A stretch of 64,000 nucleotides of DNA, from the NCBI GenBank assembly GCA_946402065.1, contig CAMIVR010000004.1:1-64000 (forward strand), read 5' to 3'. The position numbers were made by a program, and so were the translations under genes. This DNA is from an uncultured Brevibacillus sp. GTDB lineage: Bacteria; Bacillota; Bacilli; Brevibacillales; Brevibacillaceae. Positions within the stretch are counted from its first letter, which is position 1. Every line of letters begins with the position of its first letter. The notes beneath the pieces were generated by a model, which was not told where the DNA came from, ran no database searches, and saw only the letters and a program-made list of their open reading frames with translations. Shown one piece after another: positions 27,151-38,711 of this stretch.

Positions 27151-27303
27151 TTTTTTCAGGGTTCAAAAGGCTTTGGGGATTTTCTCAAAAAAGATGAGAT
27201 TTTAGAACGTTCGAGAGAACTCGGAGAGAACTAAGGAAGAACAAGCCCGCTCCCTACCATTGACACATTATTCGGAGCGTATGCTCCAGGGAGGGTGTTG
27301 TAT

Positions 27304-28095
27304 ATGTCCACAACAACGGTCATCACTATTGCAAACCAAAAAGGCGGAACCGGTAAAACCACCACAGCCTACAACCTGGCTTATGCCTTATCCAATGAAG
27401 GAAAAAAAGTACTCCTTGTTGATTTTGACCCACAAGGTAATTTGACGATGTGCTTTGGCATCGAAAATCCGGATCAACTCAAGCTCTCGATGTTTAATAT
27501 CATGAATGCCATCATGAGCGATGAGCCGCTTCCAACTCCAGACGGATACATTCACTCTCACGGCAATATCGACCTGATTCCGAGCAACATCGAATTGTCC
27601 GTTGCCGAAATCAATCTACGAGATGAAATGGGCGGAGAGAAAACGTTGGCTTCCCTTCTGGAACCAATGAAACATAAATACGATTACATCATTATCGATA
27701 CGAATCCTTCCCTCGGCTTGCTGACGATCAACGCACTCGCGGCCAGCGACCGAGTACTTATTCCGGTCAATCCGCAACTATGGTCCGCCACGGGTTTGAC
27801 CCAATTGCTTAAAATTATCGTCAAAGTGAAAAAACGGATTAATCCAAGGATTGGTATCGAGGGCATCTTAATGACCATGTGTGATACCCGAACGAACTTA
27901 TACAAGGAAGCCTTTCGTCTTGTGAAAGTTTACTACCGGGAAACTTTCCGTATCTTCGATGTGCAAATCCCGCTTTCCGTTAAAGTCGGGGAAGCCAACT
28001 TTTACAGTCAAAGCATTATCGAGTTTCATCCAAAATCCAAAGTAGCCTTGGCTTACCAAAGCTTGGCGAAGGAGTTGATCCAAAATGGCAAGTAA
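27304..28095 (+). CDS. parA: ParA-family ATPase
   Basis: VITIANQKGGTGKTTTAYNLAYAL; VDFDPQGNLT; YDYIIIDTNPSLG. Confidence 0.95.
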   Translation: MSTTTVITIANQKGGTGKTTTAYNLAYALSNEGKKVLLVDFDPQGNLTMCFGIENPDQLKLSMFNIMNAIMSDEPLPTPDGYIHSHGNIDLIPSNIELSVAEINLRDEMGGEKTLASLLEPMKHKYDYIIIDTNPSLGLLTINALAASDRVLIPVNPQLWSATGLTQLLKIIVKVKKRINPRIGIEGILMTMCDTRTNLYKEAFRLVKVYYRETFRIFDVQIPLSVKVGEANFYSQSIIEFHPKSKVALAYQSLAKELIQNGK

Positions 28096-29119
28096 ACGTC
28101 CTACGCCCAAGCTCTCCAGTATTGATGAATTGCTGCTGTTGTCCGAGGAAACAAAAGTGCCGGAAACCGGAACCGGAACAGGTGTAACCCAGCTACTTCT
28201 ATCTGACCTGGTTCCGTTTCATAACCACCCCTTCAAGTTATATGAAGGGAATAAGCTGGATGAGCTAGTTGAGAGTGTTATGGAAAACGGAGTGTTGATT
28301 CCGATCATTGTCCGACCAAAAGAACCCAATGGTTATGAAATCCTGTCCGGGCATAACCGTGTGAATGCCGCTAAAGCTGCCGGTCTCATCTCCGTTCCTT
28401 CTATTATAATGGACAATCTTACAGAGGCCGAAGCCGTCATCATCGTGGTGGACACTAATTTCCATCAACGTTCTATCCAGGATATGCTGCCTAGCGAACT
28501 GGCTCGTGCCCTGCATATGCAGCTTGAAGCATGTAAGGAAGCTAGACAGAAACAAGGTAGAATAAACGAAATTGAAAATGCCGAAATCCCCAGTAATGAC
28601 GGAGAAAACGCCGAAGGTGTCCCAGTGGGACACCGCGGCAAAAGCGTCTTTGAGGTTTCCCATAAAAACGACATGAGTCCAACCAATATCAAGCGTTACT
28701 TACGTCTCAATCATTTAGTCCCTGAGTTGTTAGAACGAGTCGATCAGGGAGAAATCAAACTACGCCCTGCTGTAGATCTGTCTTATTTGAAACCGGAAGA
28801 ACAGCAAACCGTGGAAACCTTGATTCAGGAACAAGGCTACAAGGTGGATATGAAAAAATCTGAGTTGCTAAGAGGGAAGTCTGAAAGCCGTAATTGCAAT
28901 GAACAAACCATTAGAGCCGTTCTTTCTGGAGAAGTTACCCGGAGACCAAAAAGCAAAACCCCTGCCCCTTTCAAGTTGAAACATAAAATTTACACCAAAT
29001 ACTTTACGCCGGATAGCAAAGCGGCGGAAGTCGAAGAAATCATCGACAAAGCGCTGGCCTTATATTTCTCGCAACACCCCAAAGAAAACCACGATCCAGA
29101 CAAGGAGGAATTTCAATGA
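28085..29119 (+). CDS. parB: ParB/RepB/Spo0J-family partition protein
   Basis: LVPFHNHPFKLYEGNKLDELVESVMENGVLIPIIVRP; GYEILSGHNRVNAAKAAG. Confidence 0.95.
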   Translation: MASKRPTPKLSSIDELLLLSEETKVPETGTGTGVTQLLLSDLVPFHNHPFKLYEGNKLDELVESVMENGVLIPIIVRPKEPNGYEILSGHNRVNAAKAAGLISVPSIIMDNLTEAEAVIIVVDTNFHQRSIQDMLPSELARALHMQLEACKEARQKQGRINEIENAEIPSNDGENAEGVPVGHRGKSVFEVSHKNDMSPTNIKRYLRLNHLVPELLERVDQGEIKLRPAVDLSYLKPEEQQTVETLIQEQGYKVDMKKSELLRGKSESRNCNEQTIRAVLSGEVTRRPKSKTPAPFKLKHKIYTKYFTPDSKAAEVEEIIDKALALYFSQHPKENHDPDKEEFQ

Positions 29120-29556
29120 TGTTTAAAGACCTTGCCCATGAACAGTTTTATGAAGGAAACGTGATCCGCACTAATCGTCAGCATGATCCTTATCGTAAGG
29201 CCCTCTTTTATCTCCTGGGCCTGACAGAAGACACCCGCAGAAACATCAACGATCTTTACAATTTCAAGGAGGATAGCATCCGTCTGGAGGGATTAAACGA
29301 AAGTTGGCAAACCGGAACCACTTCTCGTCTTACGCGATTAGCATTCAATTTATACACCGGCTATACGGGAGAAAGTGAAGAGGACGCCCGTCATTATAGC
29401 CCCTACTATCTATTCGACACCGGCTTACTGCCCTACTTTTTTGAAGCGGTTAAACTTCGTTATCCTTCCTACGCCTCTGATTTGTCGCAGAGTTGGACAT
29501 CGTTTCAACCTTTCACTAACCACGGCAGAGATGTATGGGATGAACTGGAGCAATAA
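29116..29556 (+). CDS. DUF6075-like ICE protein
   Basis: MMFKDLAHEQFYEGNV..DPYRKALFYLLGLTEDTRRNINDLYNFKEDSIRLEGL; overlaps parB stop. Confidence 0.65.
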   Translation: MMFKDLAHEQFYEGNVIRTNRQHDPYRKALFYLLGLTEDTRRNINDLYNFKEDSIRLEGLNESWQTGTTSRLTRLAFNLYTGYTGESEEDARHYSPYYLFDTGLLPYFFEAVKLRYPSYASDLSQSWTSFQPFTNHGRDVWDELEQ

Positions 29557-29592: not shown

Positions 29593-32500
29593 ATGGCGCG
29601 TGCGAAACAACTGAAATCGTTGTATGAATCAGGTGTATCCTACATCTCCAATTCGCCGGAAGCCTGGACGGACTATCTGACCTTTGCTTCCGGTATTTAT
29701 AAATATTCCTTCGACAATGCCCTGCTGATCTATATGCAAAACCCTACCGCAACCATGCTGGCCTCCTTGCCTCTTTGGAACAAATTGGGGCGTTATGTTT
29801 CCAAAGGAGAAAAAGCGATCGCTGTCTGTGATTATCGCGATGCCGGGTTAACGCTGGATTATTTATTTGACGTAACCCAAACTTACGGTAAGGCCGCGCC
29901 AAAAACATGGAGTTTGGAACATCTGGATATGGCTGAATTGGCAGGCCGACTGTCCTCCTACGATACCGATAATCTCAGCGAATGTATCAGTATGATGGTC
30001 AGACAAAGCATCGCTTCTTTAGATGTGTCTATGCAGGATATGGAACTGGACATGGCTGATCATCTGTTTGGTTCGCTTCCTACCGGGGGCATTGAAGATC
30101 AAATGTTGGAGTTGATTGAAGCGAGCAGTCGTTTTTTCATTCATCAGCGCTGTGGCATACCGGAATCCATCATCTTTCCAGCCTTTGATACGATCCCTCA
30201 TTGGAATACCGTGCCTCTCATGTCCCGGCTCGGCGGAATCGTCACCGAGTTATCCAAAGAAATCTTGCTGGACATCGGGAGACATGTCAAAATCTTGGAA
30301 CAGGAAAGGAGTATGACACATGACCGAAATCAAGGCGAATCTGAATTATTCCGAACAGACGGACGGCCTGCTTTATCCCCAACTGCAAATCTCCAATCAA
30401 GCGGAGGCCGACCAACAGCCCCTGGGCAAATACGGGCGAATGGCGCTGAACTATTTGCGCAATCATCATCCACAGAGGTTCATGAGCTTAAAAATGCAAG
30501 GGAACCTAATGGAAAAAATGCATCAGGCGGATCAGGAAGCCAACGAGAAGATGAACCAGCTCACCGAACAGCTTCTCCGACTTCGTCCGATGCCGCAGAC
30601 CGAAGACATTTTGGAGCGGACACGCCACCTGAATCAGATCAAATCCACAGCCGAGGAACTGGTACTGAACGACATCGTACTGAAACCGAGATAACCAAAT
30701 CAAAGCCGAATCCTGAACCGCCTGTCAGCGGTTCTTTTTTTGCACCTAAACAGGAGACCGACAGCATCAGGCATGACGTCGAAGATATGCTGGAGCACCT
30801 GCTGCGCAGCGACCGAGGCGGATTGGTGATCAAACCGCGTGTGTATCAATTTGTTACGGAGGAACCCCAACCCGTAAAAACGGCTAAACTGGCCGCATTG
30901 CTCAAGTCCCTTTACGGAATCGGCGGCGCTAGAGGAGAGTTCGGCAACGGGTTACGCGGATTCGACTACAACGGCAAAGGGATCGAGTTGTATTGGATGG
31001 ATACGGATGGCGAACATCAAAGTACTTTCACTTGGAATAAAGTCGCCACCAAGATTTTAGAACTGATCCGGGATGGCCGTTATGATGAGAACTTTGCTCC
31101 CTTCCCTCCCGTTGAACCGGAATGGACATTGTTCGATTATGCTTTGGAACTGGAACAACAGGATGCAGGCGACCAGACAACTGTAACGCTTGAAGAAGTC
31201 ACAAATCAAGATGTTCCAGATCTCGAAACGGAATACGAAAATCACGCAACAGTCATTAACGTATCGAATATACCCGCTTCCCCCGTTTCCAGCAATGCTG
31301 TCAATTATCGCTTTAACCCGGAGGCTTCCCCTTACGTTTCAGGTCCGAAAAGTAAATTCAAACGGAATATAGAAGCCATTCGGCTGCTCAAACAATTGGA
31401 ACAAGAAAATCGCCAGGCAAGCCCGGAAGACCAACAGATTCTGGCCGGTTATGTTGGATGGGGTGGTTTGGCAAATGCCTTTCATCCATCCGCGTCCGGT
31501 TGGGAAAACGAGTACCAGGAATTGAAACAATTGCTGGATGAAACGGAATATGTAGCGGCGCGAAACTCCACGATCACAGCTTTTTATACCGAGCCATTCC
31601 TTATTGAACACATTCATGTCACGTTGCATCGTTTTGGCCTTACGGATGGAGCAGGCCGCAAATTGCTTGAGCCCTCCATGGGAACCGGAAATTTCTTTTC
31701 AGTTTTGCCTCTGGATTGGCAACAGGCCGAGCTTCATGGCGTGGAACTGGACAGCATCACCGGTAGAATCTCACGACAGCTATATCCTCAAGCAACTATA
31801 CATCTACAGGGCTTTGAAACGGTCGATTTTCAGGACAATCATTTTGACGCTATTTTCAGCAATATTCCGTTTCACAATATTCGTGTATTTGACCGGCGCT
31901 ACACCAGCAATTACCTGATCCATGATTATTTTTTCGTCAAATCTTTGGACCTGCTCAAACCTGGCGGGATCTTGGCCTTTATCGCCAGCAAAGGGACACT
32001 GGACAAACAGGATTCCTCCGTTCGGGAAGTGCTGGCGCGAAAAGCGAACCTGATCGGAGCTGTACGCCTGCCTAACACAACCTTTCAATCGCTGGCCGGA
32101 GCCGAAGTCACGACTGACATCGTATTTTTGCAAAAACGGGAACAGCCGCTGAAGTCGTTGAAAAGGGAAGACATGCCAGAATGGGTGTTTACCGGTGTTA
32201 CCGAAGATGGCGTGCCGATCAACCGTTATTATCTCTCTCATCCTGAAATGGTGCTGGGACGAATGGTTTGGGATCGCGGCATGTATGGGCCGGAGCAGAC
32301 TACAGCTTGTGTGCCGCATGACAACCAGGAACTATCTCCCCTGCTGGAGCAAGCACTCAGTACGCTACAAGCCTCCTTACCCGGCGCATCGGAAAAAACA
32401 TGGGAAACAAACTTGCCGGATGTGTTGGATGAGGAAGAAGTCAAACCAATCAAGGCTCCTCCTGGAACCAAAAACTTTACCTATATCATTCAGGAAGGTC

Positions 32501-35500
32501 AAATTTTTTACTGCGAGAATGGCTATTTGTTACCGCAGGACATCAAAGGCAAAAAAGCCGATCGCATCAAAGGATTATGCGAAATCAAGTCGGCTCTCTT
32601 GGATGTCATTTATATCCAATCCCACGAATCCGGATACGATGAAACGGAGCTAAAGAAAGCCCAGCAGCAACTCAATCAGGTATACGACCGCTTTGTCCAG
32701 CAACACGGTTTTATCAACGATCGAGCGAATACGGCCGCTTTTACCGATGATGATCAACTGCCGCTCTTGCGCTCCATCGAAGATCAGACTTCGGAAAAAA
32801 CATGGGCGAAGGCTGCCATCTTTTCTCGCCCAACCATTAGAATGAACCGCCTGCCGGACCAAGCGGATAGCGCCCTGGAAGCCTTACAAATTTGCTTAAA
32901 TCAACGGCTGCGAGTCGATTTGCCGTATATTGCCCACTTATGCGGCAAATCGGTCCCCGAAGTGCGGGATGAACTGGGCGATCGTATCTTCCTCAATCCA
33001 CAAAAATATACCGGCGATGAGGAGGAAGGATGGGAACTAGACGAGGAATATTTGTCCGGCAATATCAAAGATAAGTTGGCTTATGCCACATTGAAGGCGC
33101 AGGAACGTCCCGACTTGTTTGAGCGTAATGTGGCGGCGTTAACCCGCGTTCAACCTGCTCCGCTGTTACCCGGCGATATCGATTTTCGCATTGGCAGCCC
33201 GTGGATTCCCGTTCGCTATTACCGCGATTTTATGTACGAAACCTTTGGGACGACCCAAGCGTTTCAAAGAGCCCGTACCATCGATGTGGAATATTTGGAA
33301 TATACCAATACGTGGCGAATCTCGGGTAAATCGTTGGAGCGAAACTCCATCAAGGCAAACCAGACCTACGGTACCCATCGAGCCAACGCCTACGAGATTT
33401 TTGAAAGCAGTTTGAATTTGCAAAGTATTACGATTCGAGATCCGGTCACCTACTTGGACAGCAATGGCAAGGAGCAGGTCAAATACGTGGTTAACGCCAA
33501 AGAAACAATGATTGCCCGTGCCAAACAACAACAAATGAAAGAAGCCTTCGGAGCCTGGTTGTTTCGGGATAAGGAAAGAGCGGATACGTTGCTAGCCATT
33601 TACAACGACAAATTCAATACAATCCGTCCTCGCAACTATGATGGCGATCATCTGGTGTTCCAAGGCATGAATGACGAAATGACGTTGCGGAAGCACCAAA
33701 AGGATGTCGCGGCCCGAATTATCTATTCCGGCACTGCCCTTATGGCTCATGAAGTCGGCGCGGGCAAAACCGCCGCTATGATTGCCGCAGGCATGTACTT
33801 GAAGCGTATCGGCGCGATCCAAAAACCGATGTACTGCGTCCCAAACCACTTAACCGAACAATGGGCCAATGAATTTCTACGTTTCTTCCCTGCTGCAAAT
33901 ATTTTGGTAACGACAAGAAAGGATTTTGCCCTGGCCAATCGCCAGCGCTTTGTCTCACGGATTGCGATGGGAGATTACGATGCCATCATCATCGGCCACA
34001 GCCAATTTGAGAAAATCCCCATCTCCAAGAAACGCCAGGAACAGCTCCTGCAAGATGAAATCCGCAACGTCTCCCAGAAGATTGACCAGATGAAAAAAGA
34101 AAAGGGAGACAACTGGAGCATTAAGCAGATGGTCGTTTTCGAGAACAACCTGAAATCCCGTCTGGAGCGTTTAGTCAATGAAGGCAAAAAAGACGATTTG
34201 ATTACCTTCGAGCAGCTTGGTGTGGATATGTTATTTGTCGACGAGGCGCATGCGTATAAAAATTGCTTCACATTCACTAAAATGCGTAACGTTGCCGGCA
34301 TCGGTAAATCCAGCAGCCAACGAGCGACGGACATGCTGCTGAAATGCCAATACTTACAGGAGATCAACCAGGGGCGCGGCGTGGTATTTGCTACGGGCAC
34401 GCCCATTAGCAACAGCATGTCTGAAATGTATGTGATGAAGCGCTATCTTCAACCAAACCTGTTGCAAAAGCTGGGTCTAAATTTCTTTGACAACTGGGCC
34501 GCAACGTTCGGTGAGGTCGTCACCTCGTTGGAGATTACCCCGGAAGGCAGCGGCTACCGAATGAAATCCCGCTTTGCCAAATTTCATAACTTGCCGGAAC
34601 TGATGAGCCTATTTCGTCTGGTTGCCGATATTCAGACTGCCGACATGCTGAAACTTCCTACCCCACAGTTGGAAGGCGGTAAAGCAACCATCGTTGTCAG
34701 CGAGTGCACTCCTTATCAAAAGATGATGATGAACGAATTTGTCGAGCGAGCAGAGAAAATACGGAACAACGAAGTGGATGCTACGGAAGACAATATGCTG
34801 AAGCTGACACACGAAGCAAAACTCATGTCCATTGATCCCCGACTCGTGGACGAAGAAGCCCCCTCCGATCCGGACTCCAAACTGAATCGCTGTATCTCCA
34901 ACGTTTTTGACATTTGGAAGAAAACCCAGGATGACCAGCTTACTCAAGTAATTTTTTGCGACAGCGGCACTCCGAAACCGGGACAATTTAACGTGTACGA
35001 TGAGGTAAAAGCCCAACTGTCTCATTTCGGTGTACCTGAACAAGAAATCGCTTTTATTCATGATGCGAAGACCGATGTGCAGCGGGAGGAACTTTTTGAA
35101 AAAGTTCGCCGCGGCGAAGTCCGGATATTGCTTGGATCGACTCAAAAAATGGGAACTGGTACCAATGTGCAAGATCGTCTCATTGCTGCTCACCACTTGG
35201 ATTGCCCCTGGCGACCGGCAGACATTACGCAGCGTGATGGCCGTATCCTTCGGCAAGGCAATCGGAATGAAGTTGTCCAGATTTTCCGTTATGTCACCAA
35301 GGGAACTTTCGACTCTTACCTGTGGCAAATCCAGGAACAAAAACTTCGCTATATCTCTCAAGTCATGACCGGAAAAAGTATTTCCCGTTCCTGCGAAGAT
35401 GCCGATGAAACGGTTCTTTCCGCCGCCGAAGTAAAAGCCATCGCAACCGCAAACCCATTACTTGCGGAGAAAATGCAGGTAGACAACGAAGTCATACGCT

Positions 35501-36162
35501 TGAAACTGTTGCAATCCAATTGGCATAATGAGCGCATGATGTTAGAAGGCAAAATCAAGCAGTATCCGCACTTGATCGAAAAGATACAGCAGGAAATCAA
35601 GGATTTACAGGCGGACATTCAATTGTCCCGCCAGTCCATGAACCAATCTTTTGTCATGGAATTGGATGGAAAAACCTTTACGGAACGCCCCAAGGCGGGC
35701 GAAATGCTTCTCCTCCTTTTCAACATGACGGAATTGCAACCTGATGAATCGGTACGAATCGGATCTTATCGCGGATTTGAACTTTTGTTTGCCCGTCAAT
35801 CGATGTACAACATGCATCTGGAGGTCAAAGGAGCGAAAAGCTACGCCATTGATTTAGGCGAGTCAGAATTGGGCAACATTTCCCGTATCGAGAATGCCAT
35901 TGAAAAAATCCCCTCATTGCTGCAAGATGCTGAACAAAAACAAAAAGATATGCACGATCAACTAATGGCTGCCAAAAACGAAATCGATAAGCCTTTTGAA
36001 TTTGAACAAAAACTACAGAAGATGGTAGCGCGGCAAGCCGAGATTAATTCGGCACTGGAGTTTGAAGAACTACAGGGGCAAGAAATCTTGATCGATGAGC
36101 AACCAGAGGAAGGACGATCCGAACATGCAGAAAAGTCCTTTGAGTTGGAAAGGGAGGACTAG
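29593..36162 (+). CDS. 2189-aa ArdC-like N-terminal / N6-adenine MTase / SNF2-DEAH helicase protein
   Basis: ArdC-like N-term (FSFDNALLIYMQNP..LPLWNKLGRYVSKGEKAIAV), MTase LEPSMGTGNFFSVLP and FSNIPFHN, helicase MAHEVGAGKTAAMIAAG, FVDEAHAYKN, C-terminal QRDGRILRQGN. Confidence 0.88.
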   Translation: MARAKQLKSLYESGVSYISNSPEAWTDYLTFASGIYKYSFDNALLIYMQNPTATMLASLPLWNKLGRYVSKGEKAIAVCDYRDAGLTLDYLFDVTQTYGKAAPKTWSLEHLDMAELAGRLSSYDTDNLSECISMMVRQSIASLDVSMQDMELDMADHLFGSLPTGGIEDQMLELIEASSRFFIHQRCGIPESIIFPAFDTIPHWNTVPLMSRLGGIVTELSKEILLDIGRHVKILEQERSMTHDRNQGESELFRTDGRPALSPTANLQSSGGRPTAPGQIRANGAELFAQSSSTEVHELKNAREPNGKNASGGSGSQREDEPAHRTASPTSSDAADRRHFGADTPPESDQIHSRGTGTERHRTETEITKSKPNPEPPVSGSFFAPKQETDSIRHDVEDMLEHLLRSDRGGLVIKPRVYQFVTEEPQPVKTAKLAALLKSLYGIGGARGEFGNGLRGFDYNGKGIELYWMDTDGEHQSTFTWNKVATKILELIRDGRYDENFAPFPPVEPEWTLFDYALELEQQDAGDQTTVTLEEVTNQDVPDLETEYENHATVINVSNIPASPVSSNAVNYRFNPEASPYVSGPKSKFKRNIEAIRLLKQLEQENRQASPEDQQILAGYVGWGGLANAFHPSASGWENEYQELKQLLDETEYVAARNSTITAFYTEPFLIEHIHVTLHRFGLTDGAGRKLLEPSMGTGNFFSVLPLDWQQAELHGVELDSITGRISRQLYPQATIHLQGFETVDFQDNHFDAIFSNIPFHNIRVFDRRYTSNYLIHDYFFVKSLDLLKPGGILAFIASKGTLDKQDSSVREVLARKANLIGAVRLPNTTFQSLAGAEVTTDIVFLQKREQPLKSLKREDMPEWVFTGVTEDGVPINRYYLSHPEMVLGRMVWDRGMYGPEQTTACVPHDNQELSPLLEQALSTLQASLPGASEKTWETNLPDVLDEEEVKPIKAPPGTKNFTYIIQEGQIFYCENGYLLPQDIKGKKADRIKGLCEIKSALLDVIYIQSHESGYDETELKKAQQQLNQVYDRFVQQHGFINDRANTAAFTDDDQLPLLRSIEDQTSEKTWAKAAIFSRPTIRMNRLPDQADSALEALQICLNQRLRVDLPYIAHLCGKSVPEVRDELGDRIFLNPQKYTGDEEEGWELDEEYLSGNIKDKLAYATLKAQERPDLFERNVAALTRVQPAPLLPGDIDFRIGSPWIPVRYYRDFMYETFGTTQAFQRARTIDVEYLEYTNTWRISGKSLERNSIKANQTYGTHRANAYEIFESSLNLQSITIRDPVTYLDSNGKEQVKYVVNAKETMIARAKQQQMKEAFGAWLFRDKERADTLLAIYNDKFNTIRPRNYDGDHLVFQGMNDEMTLRKHQKDVAARIIYSGTALMAHEVGAGKTAAMIAAGMYLKRIGAIQKPMYCVPNHLTEQWANEFLRFFPAANILVTTRKDFALANRQRFVSRIAMGDYDAIIIGHSQFEKIPISKKRQEQLLQDEIRNVSQKIDQMKKEKGDNWSIKQMVVFENNLKSRLERLVNEGKKDDLITFEQLGVDMLFVDEAHAYKNCFTFTKMRNVAGIGKSSSQRATDMLLKCQYLQEINQGRGVVFATGTPISNSMSEMYVMKRYLQPNLLQKLGLNFFDNWAATFGEVVTSLEITPEGSGYRMKSRFAKFHNLPELMSLFRLVADIQTADMLKLPTPQLEGGKATIVVSECTPYQKMMMNEFVERAEKIRNNEVDATEDNMLKLTHEAKLMSIDPRLVDEEAPSDPDSKLNRCISNVFDIWKKTQDDQLTQVIFCDSGTPKPGQFNVYDEVKAQLSHFGVPEQEIAFIHDAKTDVQREELFEKVRRGEVRILLGSTQKMGTGTNVQDRLIAAHHLDCPWRPADITQRDGRILRQGNRNEVVQIFRYVTKGTFDSYLWQIQEQKLRYISQVMTGKSISRSCEDADETVLSAAEVKAIATANPLLAEKMQVDNEVIRLKLLQSNWHNERMMLEGKIKQYPHLIEKIQQEIKDLQADIQLSRQSMNQSFVMELDGKTFTERPKAGEMLLLLFNMTELQPDESVRIGSYRGFELLFARQSMYNMHLEVKGAKSYAIDLGESELGNISRIENAIEKIPSLLQDAEQKQKDMHDQLMAAKNEIDKPFEFEQKLQKMVARQAEINSALEFEELQGQEILIDEQPEEGRSEHAEKSFELERED
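30320..30694 (+). CDS. tnpV: TnpV-family protein nested out of frame in the 2189-aa gene
   Basis: LLYPQLQISNQAEADQQPLGKYGRMALNYLRNHHPQRFMSLKMQGNLMEKMHQADQEANEKMNQL matches the TnpV pattern; strong AAAGGAG SD 8 nt before ATG. Confidence 0.78.
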   Translation: MTEIKANLNYSEQTDGLLYPQLQISNQAEADQQPLGKYGRMALNYLRNHHPQRFMSLKMQGNLMEKMHQADQEANEKMNQLTEQLLRLRPMPQTEDILERTRHLNQIKSTAEELVLNDIVLKPR

Positions 36163-36564: not shown

Positions 36565-37429
36565 GTCAATTCACCTTCTATGACATGTTTGACCATGTGG
36601 TCGTCGATGATGCGGCGCTTGTTGACGGCCCCGTAAATCAAGCTGTTCGTGCACACTTTGTTGATCAGCCGAGCAGCACCGCCGGAAAATTGGGAAATGA
36701 CTTCGATCGCCCCGTCAGAGAAGATGTCGTGCTCGCTACCTGCGTACGCCAGATGCCTGACGATATACTCCCCCGTCTGCGCACGATCATAATGTGGAGC
36801 TTGCACTGCAGGTCGATTCGTTGCCGGATCGCCGTGTACGCCTGCATCCTGAGCCGATCCCACAACTCACTTTGCCCCACCAGCATCAGCGCCATCGGGC
36901 TTTCCGAGTCCATCCTGACGTTCAGCAGAAACCGTACTTCCTCCAGCATCTCCCGATCAAGCAGGTGTGCCTCATCCACAATGACGCACGGTTTGACGTG
37001 GTGAATCCCGCGCAACAGTTCAATTTCGCGATGCAATTGCCGTTTCGCATCGCCGCGGTAAAACTTCGATTCACATCCCAACTGTTCCAGCACGCCCTTG
37101 TAGAAATGGCGGGGCGTCAGTTTGGAATCCGATACATACAGCACTTTGTATTTCGCCGCATCCAGCACCGCCGTAATCCGGCGTATCACCGTCGTTTTTC
37201 CGGTTCCGCAGTCTCCCGTAACAACAGCAAACCATTGGCTCTGCGCCGCGTATTCGAGGCGTTCCAGCGTTTCTTCCAGCATCACCGGCATATACAGTTC
37301 ACCGGTTGGTATGTTCCGCGTAAAGGGCGTGTGGCGAAGTCCGTAGAACGATTCAAACATCGCTCTCCACCCCCTTGCGAATCGCGCGGAAGGAGATGGC
37401 GGGCGCTTGTCGTTTCTGACGCTGCTCAT
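36561..37429 (-). pseudogene. ExeA/TniB-like AAA ATPase of the transposon, frameshifted
   Basis: MFESFYGLRHTPFTRNIPTGELYMPVMLEETLERLEYAAQSQWFAVVTGDCGTGKTTVIRRI ... RIDLQCKL, continuing in another frame as PHYDRAQTGEYIVRHLAYAGSEHDIFSDGAIEVISQFSGGAARLINKVCTNSLIYG. Confidence 0.85.
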
Positions 37430-38711
37430 GCTGCTTTTCGGCTCCGCGCAGCAGGCGCGAGGCTTCTGCCCGCTTTGGTTGTAGATGTTCCGGCAGGGGC
37501 GGTCGTTTCCCCGCTCGTTCGCCGATCACCAGTTCACGAGCCTTCCACGGTTGATGACCCTCGTATTCGATCGTGATTTCCGTGATGTCGGCGGGGTCAT
37601 ATACCACCTGAACCGTTCTGCCGATAAAGAGAAGCCCGACTTCGTATTTCCTGCCCATGAAGCTGATGCATCCCGTCTTGTCGACCTTCCGCTCCTCACA
37701 GTGAAGAAAGGCATCTGCGAGCACATCCGGCTGGACGAAACGAAGCGGATGGGGGTCCTGACGGAAGGCCTGCTCCGGACTTCTCCCGTCAAGCGCCGAG
37801 TGCGGCTTGTTCTGATAACATTCGCTAAGCCACACTTGGAATAACGCATTGAGCTGTTCAAGCGTCTTCGGCTTCTCCAGTTCTACCTCGCTTAAGAAAG
37901 AATCGATGACACCGTTCAGCCTCTCAATTTTGCCCTTTGATTCCGGCGAATAGGGTCTGGCAAAAAGAAGGCGAATTCCCAGCTTGGAACAAGTCCGCGC
38001 CATCCATTTTGTCTTATACTGTTTGCCTTGATCAAAATAGACGGCTTCCGGTACGCCGTATTTCTGAATCGTCTTACGAAAACAGTCCTCCACAATGGTC
38101 TGATCGAATACAGCGTAAAATTCCCCGTGCAAGACCGAGCGTGTCGCGTCATCCTCAAACAGTACGAGATAGACTTGCTTCTTTTCTCCGTTTGGTCCTA
38201 TGGGCAAATAGGGGCCGTATTTGATGTCCGACTGCGTCAGGGCCATGCGGCGCTTCTTTTGAAACCGCCGCGCGGCAACTCCTTTGTTCTCATACATTCG
38301 CATATGCCGCGAACTGTATCCGCATTCCGCGAGCTTCTCCTGTAAGGTGCTACGCTTGATTTCATCCGGCTTCACGATGTCTTCCCATTCCAAAATCTGA
38401 ATGATCTGCCGCACACTGCGACCGGGAACTTCGCGCCGTAGCAGGATCGCTTGTTCCAATACCGGCTGGGCAATTGCGGCATCGGCGGGCCGTCGGCCTC
38501 TTGGTTTGGGCTTCAGCCCGGCAAAGCCTTCCTCCCGGTACTGAGCCAGATACCGGCGCAAGGTGCGCTCGGACATCCCGGTTTGTTCACAAATGGATGC
38601 CTTGATCTGACTCGCCCTGGCCGGATCCAATCCTTCCGCCAGCAGGGGCGATAGCAATTGAACGCGCTGTGTGGCGATTTCTTCCGCTTTCTTCTGATCT
38701 TTCAAGCTCAT
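37353..38711 (-). CDS. Mu/IS481-type DDE transposase
   Basis: HTH N-term (MSERTLRRYLAQYREEGFAGLKPKPRGR), DDE domain (YLVLFEDDATRSVLHGEFYAVFDQ, GVPEAVYFDQGKQYKTKW, RPYSPESKGKIERLNGVIDSFL). Confidence 0.92.
   Translation of the reverse strand: MSLKDQKKAEEIATQRVQLLSPLLAEGLDPARASQIKASICEQTGMSERTLRRYLAQYREEGFAGLKPKPRGRRPADAAIAQPVLEQAILLRREVPGRSVRQIIQILEWEDIVKPDEIKRSTLQEKLAECGYSSRHMRMYENKGVAARRFQKKRRMALTQSDIKYGPYLPIGPNGEKKQVYLVLFEDDATRSVLHGEFYAVFDQTIVEDCFRKTIQKYGVPEAVYFDQGKQYKTKWMARTCSKLGIRLLFARPYSPESKGKIERLNGVIDSFLSEVELEKPKTLEQLNALFQVWLSECYQNKPHSALDGRSPEQAFRQDPHPLRFVQPDVLADAFLHCEERKVDKTGCISFMGRKYEVGLLFIGRTVQVVYDPADITEITIEYEGHQPWKARELVIGERAGKRPPLPEHLQPKRAEASRLLRGAEKQHEQRQKRQAPAISFRAIRKGVESDV

Follow-up and report, generated by a model that had tools for sequence, protein, structure and literature searches.

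tnpV is nested out of frame in a predicted DarB-like gene

The window, which is the whole 64,000-nucleotide stretch of Brevibacillus sp. DNA that was analysed, contains a large ORF on the forward strand (29593–36162) encoding a protein of 2189 residues, referred to hereafter as the host gene and host protein. Pfam domains SNF2-rel_dom, Helicase_C and Eco57I are detected in this protein, and a match of 1542 bits to PHROG 10089 (DarB-like antirestriction) spans residues 564–2160 (31282–36072). This methylase-helicase core is also the part common to plasmid relatives outside the Firmicutes. In the translation the helicase motifs are intact (AHEVGAGKT as Walker A, and DEAH), and SNIPF, at methylase motif IV, is a variant of N-P-P-Y/F. 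The N-terminal part (residues 1–242, 29593–30318) can be considered ArdC-like: the ArdC N-terminal domain PF08401 scores 20.9 bits, below the curated cut-off of 22.6, a Listeria homologue is named ArdC-like ssDNA-binding by RefSeq, and the AF2 model of this part is folded. The core, with an adenine methylase followed by an SNF2-type module, resembles DarB of phage P1 and the polyvalent methylase-helicase proteins, and an ArdC-N ‘header’, matched here by the ArdC-like N-terminus, is typical of the methylase-helicase versions found on conjugative elements (Iyer et al. 2017, PMC5512222). The host protein is a predicted DarB-like anti-restriction methylase-helicase of a mobile element. Directly upstream on the same strand (27295–29556) lie genes for ParA (27295–28095; AAA_31, 196.7 bits), ParB (28085–29119; ParB_N, 58.9 bits) and a DUF6075 protein (29116–29556; 150.3 bits). 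Directly 3′ of the host gene, on the reverse strand at 36665–38711, ORFs resembling an AAA-ATPase and a DDE transposase have the look of an insertion element, as judged by eye from their translations.

A second ORF of 124 codons, tnpV, is fully contained in the host gene on the same strand (30320–30694). Its start is offset from that of the host by 30320−29593 = 727 nucleotides (727 mod 3 = 1), corresponding to phase +1. The original prediction of a 124-residue TnpV ORF in a shifted frame inside the 2189-residue gene is thus confirmed, the protein matching Pfam family PF14198 (TnpV) over profile positions 3–111 of 111 with 88.5 bits (E 3.8e-25; curated cut-off 27). The predicted AF2 model (pLDDT 87.8) consists of a two-strand hairpin and five helices. 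No match to TnpV was obtained in NCBIfam or PADLOC, and a Foldseek search of the PDB with the model gave no clear solved fold (best E 1.2). A profile search of PDB sequences reached a best E of 0.12, comparison by VIA-align gave no useful match (best Z 4.3), and the best hit among viral structures was an uncharacterised phage protein (E 0.067). A search of viral contigs with either the TnpV or the host protein returned no related loci.

In the passages on TnpV in PMC3158075, an excision role of TnpV from Tn4451 is postulated from homology with lambda Xis, and relatives are placed in Tn6104–Tn6106 of C. difficile. The TnpV of the window belongs to the same family, above the curated cut-off, but whereas these passages describe stand-alone genes, tnpV is nested out of frame here. 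Few papers name TnpV, and in the part of the literature covered the passages concerned make no mention of an overlap. A rival view, prompted by the postulate for Tn4451, is that TnpV serves the element as an excisionase or directionality factor and that its nesting is incidental. The relatives in Tn6104–Tn6106 and the occurrence of stand-alone copies in mobilisable elements, such as locus L199 beside a MobC-like gene and a relaxase, agree with such a role. However, conservation of nested TnpV is just as strong on plasmids of Listeria, Enterococcus and Virgibacillus, no link to a recombinase gene is apparent in the host loci, and the PDB searches with the confident model gave no excisionase-like match, a result that does not exclude one. 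We consider an excisionase role unlikely.

A putative internal start signal is held by host codon choice

The sequence AAAGGAG at 30305–30311, within the host coding sequence, forms a candidate Shine-Dalgarno motif located 8 nt ahead of the tnpV ATG, exactly as had been claimed. An ATG with an SD-like motif is present in 105 of 106 loci, with at least 5 motif bases in 94; as SD strength was one of the criteria for choosing the tnpV start, this count is biased when taken alone. An independent test is offered by the codons used in the host frame. Of 97 host Arg codons at the SD site, 94 are AGG and 3 are AGA, compared to a 9% share of AGG among all host Arg codons. Similarly, host Glu-Arg is encoded as GAAAGG in 82/91 cases at the site, compared to 100/1795 (5.6%) elsewhere. 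This pattern indicates that the predicted internal Shine-Dalgarno is held by synonymous codon choice in the host frame.

A TGA at 30314–30316 lies in the TnpV frame just ahead of the start, such that the frame is free of stops only from 30317, which argues against frameshift entry from upstream. According to the latter model, the TnpV frame would be part of an ArdC-TnpV fusion made by ribosomes slipping one base from the host frame, as could be imagined for loci whose TnpV frame extends without a stop well ahead of the ATG (by 86 codons in L092 and L103, and by 136–139 in L155 and L147). In the window and in loci L109, L112, L122, L141, L081 and L132, however, a stop is found 0–1 codons before the ATG, leaving hardly any room to shift. 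Stand-alone TnpV proteins are furthermore similar in length to the nested ones. Given an SD-like motif and ATG in nearly all loci, and the stop just before the ATG in the window and these relatives, slippage is highly improbable and was rejected.

Selection follows the TnpV frame

It had been proposed that the TnpV frame is constrained and the host frame tolerant. The frequencies of differences at host codon positions 1/2/3, taken over 37 pairs that share some sequences and without correction for multiple hits, are.079/.050/.233 upstream and.084/.056/.275 downstream of the overlap, compared to.190/.089/.065 within it. Hence host position 3, the fastest elsewhere (0.23–0.27), becomes the slowest (0.065), and host position 1 the fastest (0.19). 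As host position 1 corresponds to TnpV position 3, constraint in the overlap follows TnpV. When changes were classed by their effect in both frames (the class silent in both comprising only 20 differences), TnpV omega was about 0.29 whether or not the host protein changes, in contrast to host omega values of 1.26 and 1.25 across the overlap. Both the reversal of the codon positions and the omega values reveal purifying selection on TnpV, in support of the original proposal.

Changes that create a stop occur at.024, compared to.30 for those that are TnpV-silent and host-changing. When TnpV is recoded synonymously, the host frame acquires a mean of 5.4 stops (median P(open).0025). Across the overlap in 106 loci (12,659 codons), neither the TnpV frame nor the host frame contains a stop, compared to 1342 in the third frame. 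No stop splits the host frame at this position: it can be read across the full length of the TnpV ORF in 102/102 nested hosts with intact ArdC and methylase parts. Since host omega is close to 1.25, the host segment over tnpV is predicted to be free to change apart from the avoidance of stops.

The general frequency of spurious ORFs is all that would favour tnpV as a chance open frame or annotation artefact. The Pfam match, the presence of the nested gene in 102 of 103 hosts (see below), the omega values and the absence of stops in 106 loci all speak against this, and the codon-position test refutes it; the probability of a chance frame is negligible. We consider it very likely that the overlap is real, with both frames translated.

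The host linker is tnpV read one frame off

Over the tnpV DNA, the host frame reads RTDGRPALSPTANLQSSGGRPTAPGQ..., in line with the low-complexity linker described originally. Hydrophobic residues make up 11% of the host segment over tnpV, compared to 34% upstream and 32% downstream. In an AlphaFold model of host residues 1–524 (39 sequences), pLDDT is below 50 at residues 254–391 and the flanks are folded. The region predicted to be unstructured (30352–30765) covers most of the overlap (residues 243–367) as well as the hairpin discussed below, which supports the view of this segment as a tolerant, disordered linker. Between the ArdC-like part and the folded domain that comes next, the host linker is tnpV read one frame off, and it can change as long as it remains free of stops. 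This sets the host protein apart from the polyvalent proteins as described in PMC5512222, in the main text of which the words ‘TnpV’ and ‘overlap’ are both absent.

The nested arrangement is widespread in the host family

In plasmids of Virgibacillus, Enterococcus and Listeria, a tblastn search with TnpV located out-of-frame matches inside genes whose sole annotation is ‘SNF2-related protein’. TnpV loci in 398 genomes of the phylum fall into two classes: the gene is either stand-alone with the other frames closed, or nested in a long stop-free host frame (at least 860 residues within the fetched DNA, in one phase throughout). The nested form accounts for a large share of the TnpV loci found. 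To complement this, hosts were surveyed independently of TnpV, from helicase matches in the phylum sample and 80 loci from a helicase-alignment scan of genome contigs, with the addition of plasmid loci and three Bacilli loci partly chosen through TnpV. A nested TnpV (E < 1e-3) was detected in 102 of 103 hosts that have ArdC-like and methylase parts in one frame, in phase +1 in all 102 and in other phases in none; some of these loci are near-duplicates, so that they do not represent 102 independent cases. The exception, L099, has a different N-terminus, with the core starting at residue 377. While the sensitivity of the HMM for distant TnpV came from iterating on the surveyed loci, the Pfam matches are independent of that procedure.

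Carriers of nested tnpV belong to the Bacilli and Clostridia, with two Synergistota. Relatives in Burkholderia, Campylobacter and Lactobacillus start at or near the methylase core and possess neither ArdC nor TnpV, which suggests the ArdC-like part and nested tnpV come together. Sequence identities of TnpV and of the host core are correlated across the 102 loci (r = 0.91). In an unrooted TnpV tree, four label changes between nested and stand-alone are required; the stand-alone genes placed among nested lineages comprise a clade of 14 and four singletons. Taken together, the survey points to an arrangement that is old and nearly universal in the family of hosts with ArdC and methylase parts. 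It is plausible, but unproven, that an ArdC-like gene and a methylase-helicase gene were fused by out-of-frame reading through tnpV.

Nested tnpV is present in about 100 related elements across the Firmicutes, and genome annotation usually omits it. In plasmids L006–L011 and L014–L016 (PLSDB table), the host gene is annotated and nested TnpV is not; for L013, TnpV is annotated and the N-terminal part of the host is not.

Several loci depart from the typical layout. The genome from which the window comes encodes a second, diverged DarB-like host with nested tnpV (L092; contig C134:3000-15500), the TnpV of which is 29% identical to the window copy. In the Listeria plasmid locus L012 (6292–9040), the host is cut to 501 residues with an IS6-type transposase nearby, and the nested tnpV is intact; many Listeria records from the tblastn search resemble this locus. 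The stand-alone tnpV of L199 (3857–7211) lies between a ParB-like gene and MobC-like and relaxase-like genes, in what looks like an element that has lost its large host gene. L085 and L091 encode hosts of 2992 and 3286 residues, with long extra stretches from the tnpV overlap to the methylase. The host ORF of L101 (3692–15001, reverse strand coordinates) comprises at least 3770 residues and runs off the end of the locus, with a weak TnpV-like match of 32.6 bits in phase +1.

A partial precedent is provided by ardD, located inside tniA of Tn5053 (PMC3533173), which is likewise a mobile-element gene wholly within another coding gene in an anti-restriction setting. However, ardD is antisense and confined to the transposase gene of one transposon, whereas tnpV is same-strand in phase +1, is kept over at least two phyla and is followed by its own terminator-like signal.

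A hairpin resembling an intrinsic terminator lies behind tnpV in the host ORF

The hairpin GAACCGCCTGTCAGCGGTTC followed by TTTTTTT is located at 30715–30741, 20 nt past the tnpV stop and within the host ORF, and has the appearance of an intrinsic terminator; its description at this position is, as a predicted element, new here. A folding-based scan, which superseded a strict terminator scan without long loops or bulges (31/106 loci), showed that 85/106 loci have, behind tnpV, a hairpin of −10 kcal/mol or below that closes on a T-run, compared to 21/424 (5%) random windows of the same ORFs. The median energy is −16.1 after tnpV and 0 in the control windows. Along the host gene, the signal peaks at.71 just after tnpV, with the other bins mostly at.03–.13 and two further bins at.17 and.21. 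A total of 67 distinct hairpins occur after tnpV, and in the alignable subset (n = 27) pair 3 is G-C in 16 and A-T in 11. A strong hairpin survives host-synonymous recoding in only 79/510 trials, suggesting that it is maintained beyond the needs of the host protein.

Alternatively, the hairpin could be an mRNA structure for translation or stability, or a relic from a time when tnpV ended its own operon. The T-run quality indeed varies, and the hairpin is weak or missing in about 20% of loci, from which it does not appear indispensable. A similarly strong hairpin is present in 7/18 stand-alone tnpV genes, as would fit an original tnpV terminator. Against this, hairpin and T-run co-occur at one place across lineages with stems that differ in sequence, and host amino acids alone would keep the combination just 15% of the time. 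We regard the structural or relic explanation as rather improbable, and hold that the hairpin probably works as an intrinsic terminator, with transcription suggested to stop after tnpV unless read-through occurs.

Internal terminators with antitermination are used by Gram-positive conjugative elements, as illustrated by conAn of pLS20 (PMC8955417) and canT of Tn916 (PMC11658703), where polymerase has to pass intrinsic terminators within a transfer region for downstream genes to be expressed. Unlike in those systems, the terminator-like site described here lies inside a single ORF, right after a nested gene. As reported in PMC13323073, polymerase outruns ribosomes in Bacillus and exposed mRNA can terminate within genes.

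Proposed mechanism

A single stretch of DNA very probably holds two overlapping genes together with inner start and hairpin signals, an assignment that leaves aside the role of TnpV and derives from comparative sequence data. We propose that ribosomes start at the internal Shine-Dalgarno of the same mRNA to make TnpV, a small folded protein, and that RNA polymerase would by default halt at the hairpin behind tnpV. As no stop codon occurs in the host frame ahead of the hairpin, the resulting short mRNA would yield complete TnpV but no complete large protein. Full-length host protein would be made upon polymerase read-through, for example when antitermination is switched on at transfer.

The weakest step concerns TnpV itself, which would most likely assist or regulate the anti-restriction protein as its partner at element entry, a role that we put forward as doubtful. 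A function at this stage is plausible because DarB shields incoming DNA against type I restriction and binding of single-stranded DNA is presumed for ArdC-N (PMC5512222). Stand-alone TnpV genes occur away from any such host, hence the large protein is not required for TnpV to act or persist. Possibly, and still with more doubt than conviction, the inner unit of Shine-Dalgarno, tnpV and terminator could be a built-in switch, with TnpV alone as the default and the methylase-helicase made upon passage, and with TnpV acting either in that decision or on the large protein.

Significance

To our knowledge, few long same-strand gene pairs have been documented in bacteria in which one gene is fully nested in the other and selection is clear. 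The near-universal arrangement in the host family, the terminator-like hairpin after tnpV and the DarB-like nature of the host extend the original prediction. Annotation of complete plasmids shows the outer gene only, despite the nested tnpV in so many elements. The overlap is a clean two-frame test system, with one frame constrained and the other neutral apart from stops, and it suggests that a large multidomain protein can gain a linker for free from the other frame of another gene. TnpV, its start signal and the hairpin can each be eliminated singly by changes that are silent in the host frame, which makes every claim directly testable. For the conjugative elements themselves, the arrangement would place a candidate expression switch within a major anti-restriction gene.
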